A program made the translations under genes and the position numbers. This document shows, in pieces, positions 52,961 through 53,017 of a stretch of DNA of 64,000 nucleotides. The notes under the pieces were generated by a model. That model searched no databases, was not told where the DNA came from, and saw nothing but the letters and a program-made list of their open reading frames with translations. Positions within the stretch are counted from its first letter, which is position 1, and each line of letters opens with the position of its first letter. Location: positions 124,001-188,000 of the forward strand of contig WRKR01000001.1 of NCBI GenBank assembly GCA_009782175.1, in the 5' to 3' direction. Source of the stretch: Cystobacterineae bacterium. GTDB lineage: Bacteria > Myxococcota > Myxococcia > Myxococcales > Myxococcaceae.

Positions 52961-53017
52961 ACCCCCATGCGCCCGCGGGGCGCGACTTATGCTTTTTGTG
53001 AATGCTGTTTCAATTCA
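52961..53017 (-). ncRNA. Degenerate mini repeat-spacer-repeat, CreR-like crRNA candidate
   Basis: On the crRNA (minus) strand this reads: TTTGAATTGAAAC (end of a repeat, 53017 leftwards), a 20-base spacer AGCATTCACAAAAAGCATAA (53006-52987), then GTCGCGCCCCGCGGGCGCA (52986 leftwards), which keeps the palindromic hairpin GCGCCC/GGGCGC of the repeat. Both halves match the array repeat in sequence, order and orientation, with a short spacer. Known Cas-regulating RNAs (CreR) have this build and direct Cascade to repress cas promoters. The second half overlaps the cas5 leader. It could instead be a decayed mini-array. Confidence 0.55.

Follow-up and report, generated by a model that had tools for sequence, protein, structure and literature searches.

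A probable orphan CreTA-type guide upstream of cas5c and putative CRISPR-guarded modules in the cas3-cas5c gaps of type I-C loci

What is a crRNA-like sequence doing immediately upstream of cas5c in the type I-C locus of the window, the 64,000-nucleotide stretch of DNA analyzed here? An earlier note on this DNA had described, at 52961–53017, a crRNA-like guide with two degenerate repeats and had read it as a CreR device for autorepression of the cas genes. We re-read the minus strand and compared it with the repeat of the locus's own array: the sequence and coordinates are correct, and the guide anatomy is borne out by the octamer ATTGAAAC, a 20-nt spacer and a repeat-like hairpin. The proposed role fares differently, as discussed below. 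From comparison with related loci, the element is probably an orphan, decaying creA, i.e., the guide half of a CreTA-type module common to many type I-C cas3-cas5c gaps.

Read 5′ to 3′ on the minus strand, the element and its downstream flank are TTTGAATTGAAAC-AGCATTCACAAAAAGCATAA-GTCGCGCCCCGCGGGCGC-ATGGGGGTTTT-GTG, the GTG at 52957 being the cas5c start codon. The 5′ half is a psiR1 remnant (GAATTGAAAC, 53007–53016, minus strand), equivalent to the 3′ end of a degenerate repeat and hence to a crRNA 5′ handle; it retains ATTGAAAC (53014–53007), the last eight bases of the array repeat, and lacks the hairpin that usually precedes the handle. Next come the spacer psiS (AGCATTCACAAAAAGCATAA, 52987–53006, minus strand), with no PAM-flanked target nearby, and the repeat 5′ part psiR2 (52969–52986, minus strand), which is identical to the locus's own repeat except in the loop of its 6-bp hairpin (GCGCCC-CGC-GGGCGC): GTCGCGCCC...GGGCGC is kept with the stem intact, and the loop is shortened from TCAC to CGC. 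The hairpin ends 11 nt ahead of the cas5c GTG. The psiR2 tail (ATGGGGGTTTT, 52958–52968, minus strand) also serves as the cas5c ribosome-binding region, the binding site adjoining the element without a gap (ATGGGGG TTTT GTG). The arrangement ATTGAAAC-N20-GTCGCGCCC was found once outside the array, with none expected from shuffled sequences; taken as a whole, the element does not fold with unusual energy (z 0.34). Of the two repeat hairpins, the window copy therefore has only that of psiR2, together with the octamer of the handle.

The element is located between cas3 (53156–55501, minus strand) and cas5c (52277–52957, minus strand; PF09704, E = 1e-48), which has a GTG start and encodes the type I-C pre-crRNA nuclease Cas5c (Cas5d). 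The reference repeat, GTCGCGCCCTCACGGGCGCGTGGATTGAAAC, was taken from the array of ~112 repeats at 31384–39847, which is on the same (minus) strand. The gap measures 198 nt, with 137 nt preceding the handle compared to ~200–270 nt in complete modules of other loci. In its remaining part (53018–53155, minus strand), where relatives carry a target, a promoter and a toxin ORF, none of these is recognizable, and no intact homologous toxin ORF was found in the shortened gap. A 39-codon ORF (MATEIKKTSAALTLKTLCRPWSLCRFLMFGFKNLQCCLG, 53037–53156, minus strand) overlaps the cas3 stop (TGATG), has no Pfam match and is doubtful as a gene. Frame 1 of the gap weakly resembles the small peptide of locus L043, but was rejected as a toxin remnant: it contains an in-frame stop, and the shuffle p value of ~0.005, obtained among 12 comparisons, is not significant after correction.

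Cas5c homologues gathered from GTDB genomes, plasmids and whole-genome searches led to 179 distinct type I-C loci (duplicates removed) that yielded a cas3-cas5c gap, and these gaps were searched for the handle-like sequence NNNDRTHGAAAY. Handle-like elements are absent from all 100 gaps shorter than 90 nt, and are present in 4 of 27 gaps of 90–179 nt, 25 of 44 gaps of 180–450 nt, and 3 of 8 longer gaps. Inspection of the same gap in relatives, a check that the earlier note had suggested, revealed that both repeat halves recur at the equivalent position, as psiR1-psiS-psiR2 elements within the cas locus whose repeats resemble those of the host's own array; in places the handle tracks the host's own repeat variant (e.g. 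GTGTGTTGAAAC in L070). A hairpin of at least 5 bp lies flush with the handle (psiR1) in 20 of 28 elements, compared to 4.9 expected from shuffles, and has 15 distinct arm sequences; a stem that is kept while its arms change in sequence fits a processing site for Cas5c. This hairpin is absent from the window copy and from its closest relative, L043, a Desulfobulbaceae MAG whose Cas5c is 84% identical. In L043 the element runs from the handle through a spacer of 21 nt and an almost complete repeat to, after a further 15 nt, another repeat hairpin that lies directly before the cas5c ATG, and the L043 gap holds a complete module, including a TTC-flanked target and a 50-residue ORF of transmembrane (TM) type. 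In two further loci, L098 and L099, an inverted repeat upstream of cas5c (GGTCCACTCTCC ... GGAGAGTGGACC in L098) has the guide between its arms and base-pairs with the Shine-Dalgarno region of cas5c; guide processing could affect cas5c translation in these loci.

TTC is the PAM of type I-C, and in the Cascade R-loop every sixth base is flipped out. For the 28 elements, all PAM-adjacent sites upstream of the handle, in the gap and in 60 nt of cas3, were scored against the spacer, with positions 6 and 12 unweighted and position 18 outside the score. TTC ranked first of the 64 possible PAM triplets, with a summed score of 477 versus 304 for the next best; 2000 reassignments of the spacers among loci gave a mean of 279 (sd 13) and a maximum of 334. 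Among 21 confident pairs, positions 1–5 and 7–11 match in ~96% of cases and positions 13–17 in ~80%, with matches at chance level at position 6 (5/21), position 12 (5/21) and position 18 (4/21). The match spans 17 nt and fades thereafter, and the drop at position 18 is not an artefact, because this position lies outside the score. The pairing pattern bears the mark of a Cascade R-loop limited to 17 nt; a match of this length should permit binding by Cascade but not cleavage by Cas3. A de novo search for pairs that ignored the handle placed the spacer directly after it in ~16 loci. In most loci the TTC-flanked target is just downstream of the cas3 stop, within ~30 nt, and in several, though not all (L093, L112, L128, L131, L135), a σ70-like −35 box is present 4–12 nt beyond the PAM. 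The promoter score of the gap is significant in some loci only; by the PAM and target statistics, the relatives have a partial target that is flanked by a PAM and adjacent to a promoter. This internal promoter may also feed cas5c.

Between target and handle, the gaps of the relatives contain small ORFs. ORFs of at least 30 codons that are preceded by a Shine-Dalgarno sequence and encode a strongly hydrophobic segment occur in 11 of 23 modules, versus 0.6 expected from dinucleotide shuffles; examples of these TM-type peptides are MSRPDREPEPPDYSVRLTLDIRGRERAPVWPWVVVLVAMILGSPFLGRLMDRLL (L055), MGEPQKEQKSSYSMRLNLSIESHDKPSAWLWIVVLIALVVGSPWLGKLITTLL (L065) and MQDPNEADFSCKLNLDLRIRKHVPFWFWLITLILCLNGSLLLGRLTEKFI (L043). 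Shine-Dalgarno-led ORFs of 24 codons ending in Pro-Pro-stop occur in 4 of 23 modules, with none expected (5 when L132 is included by eye), as exemplified by MQLKVKLKLFGNNFIDFEIKLEPP (L128) and MRFRLKLKVWGTNVLDLEVSIEPP (L132). In the five 24-residue peptides, 48 of 87 identical residues are specified by non-identical codons, with the least variation at the second codon position; this pattern implies that the peptide is under selection. The members of this family, in the Desulfobulbia loci L112/L125, L127, L128, L132 and L135, end in Glu/Asp-Pro-Pro-stop and have a strong Shine-Dalgarno sequence; they are possibly ribosome-stalling. A third type of gap, in four marine gammaproteobacterial loci (L077, L080, L082, L108), encodes HicA between cas3 and cas5c: L077 and L082 also have a guide and a TTC-flanked target, L080 has a weaker TTT-flanked match, and in L108 no clear guide-target pair was found. 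An opposite-strand ORF in the HicA gaps resembles HicB by eye, a reading without Pfam support, and in L074 hicA and hicB precede that locus's own small-ORF module. No family was matched in a Pfam search with the small gap peptides, and a search of 369 genomes of the class with the L055 peptide retrieved only itself, implying that the peptides diverge too fast for such searches. The best reading of the gap ORF, or of HicA, is that of a putative toxin repressed by the guide.

In the window, no PAM-flanked target of the spacer was found, either in the gap or in the window as a whole. The best score at TTC sites in the gap is 10/22, within background, and TTC or TTT sites near the window cas promoters reach at most 12/22, likewise at background level; a cas3-promoter candidate with a score of 12 (TTC at 55540) was rejected on the same grounds. 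The 8/10 spacer match at 53127–53118 that the earlier note had pointed out is at chance level, ~0.15 such sites being expected in the gap, and is flanked by TGC in place of the PAM. Scoring of the spacer against the cas promoters, which that note had also called for, revealed no PAM-flanked target in the window's promoter regions, whether of cas3 or of cas5c. These results argue against a CreR, i.e., a crRNA-like regulator under whose guidance Cascade would bind a cas promoter without cutting it, leading to autorepression of the type I-C (or I-C/III-B) operon. CreR is described as a regulator of cas promoters (PMC12737573), and guide anatomy immediately upstream of cas5c is what it would lead one to expect. 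In relatives, however, conserved toxin-like ORFs or HicA come after the target inside the gap, as in the CreTA layout, and we consider CreR unlikely as an account of the window element. A CreR-like effect may nevertheless coexist, since the region downstream of the relatives' target is read through into cas5c, and repression at the target could lower cas expression.

Quite unlikely, too, is a site acting in cis, at which Cas5c would bind or cut the hairpin at the cas5c ribosome-binding site, resulting in post-transcriptional autoregulation or trimming of the mRNA 5′ end. Cas5c is the repeat nuclease of type I-C according to references given within PMC10651486, and the perfect psiR2 hairpin precedes the GTG by about the length of a type I-C crRNA handle. 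A repeat-like hairpin adjoins the cas5c ribosome-binding site, close to the start codon, in three loci (52958–52986 in the window, 6568–6602 in L043, and L055), and this contact suggests possible control by Cas5c of its own mRNA. The hairpin is not flush with the start codon in most modules, however, and a cis site leaves the handle, the spacer and the PAM-flanked targets unexplained. The intact handle octamer and psiR2 hairpin could also mean that the window guide has retained function, as a creA whose target lies in trans or whose toxin has been replaced, for instance by the 39-codon ORF. A search of the 2.7 Mb genome gave a single candidate, on contig C19 at 23237, where a TTC is followed by pairing at all of positions 1–5 and 7–11, with mismatches at 6 and 12. 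One such match in a genome of this size is near chance, and the site sits within coding sequence, inside a small lipoprotein-like ORF; it was rejected as a target. The 39-codon ORF, for its part, has neither a clear Shine-Dalgarno sequence nor an upstream target. We regard a still-functional creA as very unlikely.

The orphan creA that we favor would derive from a module working as follows. The creA RNA, equipped with a 5′ handle and, in most copies, with a hairpin at which Cas5c would process it, would load Cascade, which would bind the TTC-flanked, 17-nt partial target downstream of cas3, beside the promoter, and block transcription of a tiny putative toxin gene, the short match being too small to license cleavage. 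Loss or inhibition of Cascade would allow the toxin to be produced. In the window, the target, promoter and recognizable toxin are gone together with the psiR1 hairpin, as would be expected had the toxin half been lost, leaving no target in cis. The type I-C relatives have all the features of CreTA that sequence can reveal; the window copy, having no PAM-flanked target and no adjacent toxin gene, is classed neither as a complete CreTA nor as a CreR. More broadly, we consider it rather likely that the cas3-cas5c gap of type I-C loci is home to a widespread class of CRISPR-guarded addiction modules specific to this subtype, whose true peptide toxins fall into several unrelated groups (single-TM, 24-residue Pro-Pro-stop and perhaps ribosome-stalling, and HicA). 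The toxins would be freely exchanged, the guide-target pair would co-evolve under Cascade's every-sixth-base rule, and the window would represent an end stage in which the guide alone is left.

Type I-C has no cas6. The creTA genes reported earlier all surround cas6 (PMC10097628). The nearest match is the CreTA of Acinetobacter type I-F, located in a cas3-csy1 gap of ~400 bp that is absent from other loci, which likewise has a psiR1 more diverged than psiR2, a partial match of psiS to a PAM-flanked nearby target, and a conserved, Shine-Dalgarno-led mini-ORF (PMC10097628). The modules described here differ in being of type I-C, with a TTC PAM, a position upstream of cas5c, an ORF co-directional with creA, and longer, diverse ORFs (TM or -PP-stop) or HicA. 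The CreT of Acinetobacter acts as RNA (PMC10097628), whereas conservation at the protein level suggests peptide toxins here. Haloarchaeal type I-B CreTA shares the degenerate repeats around a short guide, with psiR1 more diverged than psiR2, the TTC PAM and the partial match to a toxin promoter, and differs in subtype, place relative to the cas genes and toxin type (PMC9458426). In CrePA, as described in a review, a guide RNA represses the gene of a protein toxin with a KilA-N domain (PMC12737573); the HicA of the four marine loci would be such a toxin, although the toxin families are others and no KilA-N domain was seen here. CreR, by the same description, is similar in being a crRNA-like RNA encoded beside cas genes with a partial target match (PMC12737573), and is distinguished by its cas-promoter target. 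Racr and phage solitary repeat units resemble the window element as stand-alone repeat-like hairpins outside arrays, but are virus-borne and inhibit Cas complexes (PMC10651486), whereas the window element is part of a cas operon. We found no type I-C CreTA described in the open-access literature that was searched; an earlier mention is possible in subscription papers on CreR, the first CreTA and CrePA.

Type I-C is among the common subtypes, and cultured hosts among the loci include Azotobacter vinelandii, Delftia tsuruhatensis, Halomonas and Sinimarinibacterium; A. vinelandii CA (L046) and Halomonas sp. Y3 (L062) have complete modules. A 2025 review treats CreTA-like mechanisms beyond the few studied subtypes as an open question (PMC12737573), to which the type I-C data provide a positive, testable answer. 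The co-varying guide-target pairs constitute an evolutionary record of Cascade's base-flipping geometry, and the cas3-cas5c gaps offer a pool of small, unstudied putative toxins. Such modules would explain why type I-C loci are hard to lose and why anti-CRISPR proteins are penalized. The window copy indicates that a guide can outlive its toxin, and an orphan guide should not be taken at once for a CreR.

The window locus itself is a hybrid: at 40337–49517, cmr genes (a Cmr1-like RAMP, Cas10/Cmr2, Cmr3 and others) are located between cas4 and cas1 of the type I-C operon, which has one array, and a DUF6602 protein is encoded between cmr2 and cmr3 (44772–45701). Two array spacers, at 35488 and 36466, are near-identical (95% across the 96-nt unit). 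Elsewhere in the same genome, a repeated sequence containing TTCAGCATTCCCAGAAGGGAGCT is found near several contig ends (C4:63–82, C14:59539, C17:55004, C44:21392 and C46:17102); it is probably a mobile element and, as far as seen, has no relation to the guide.
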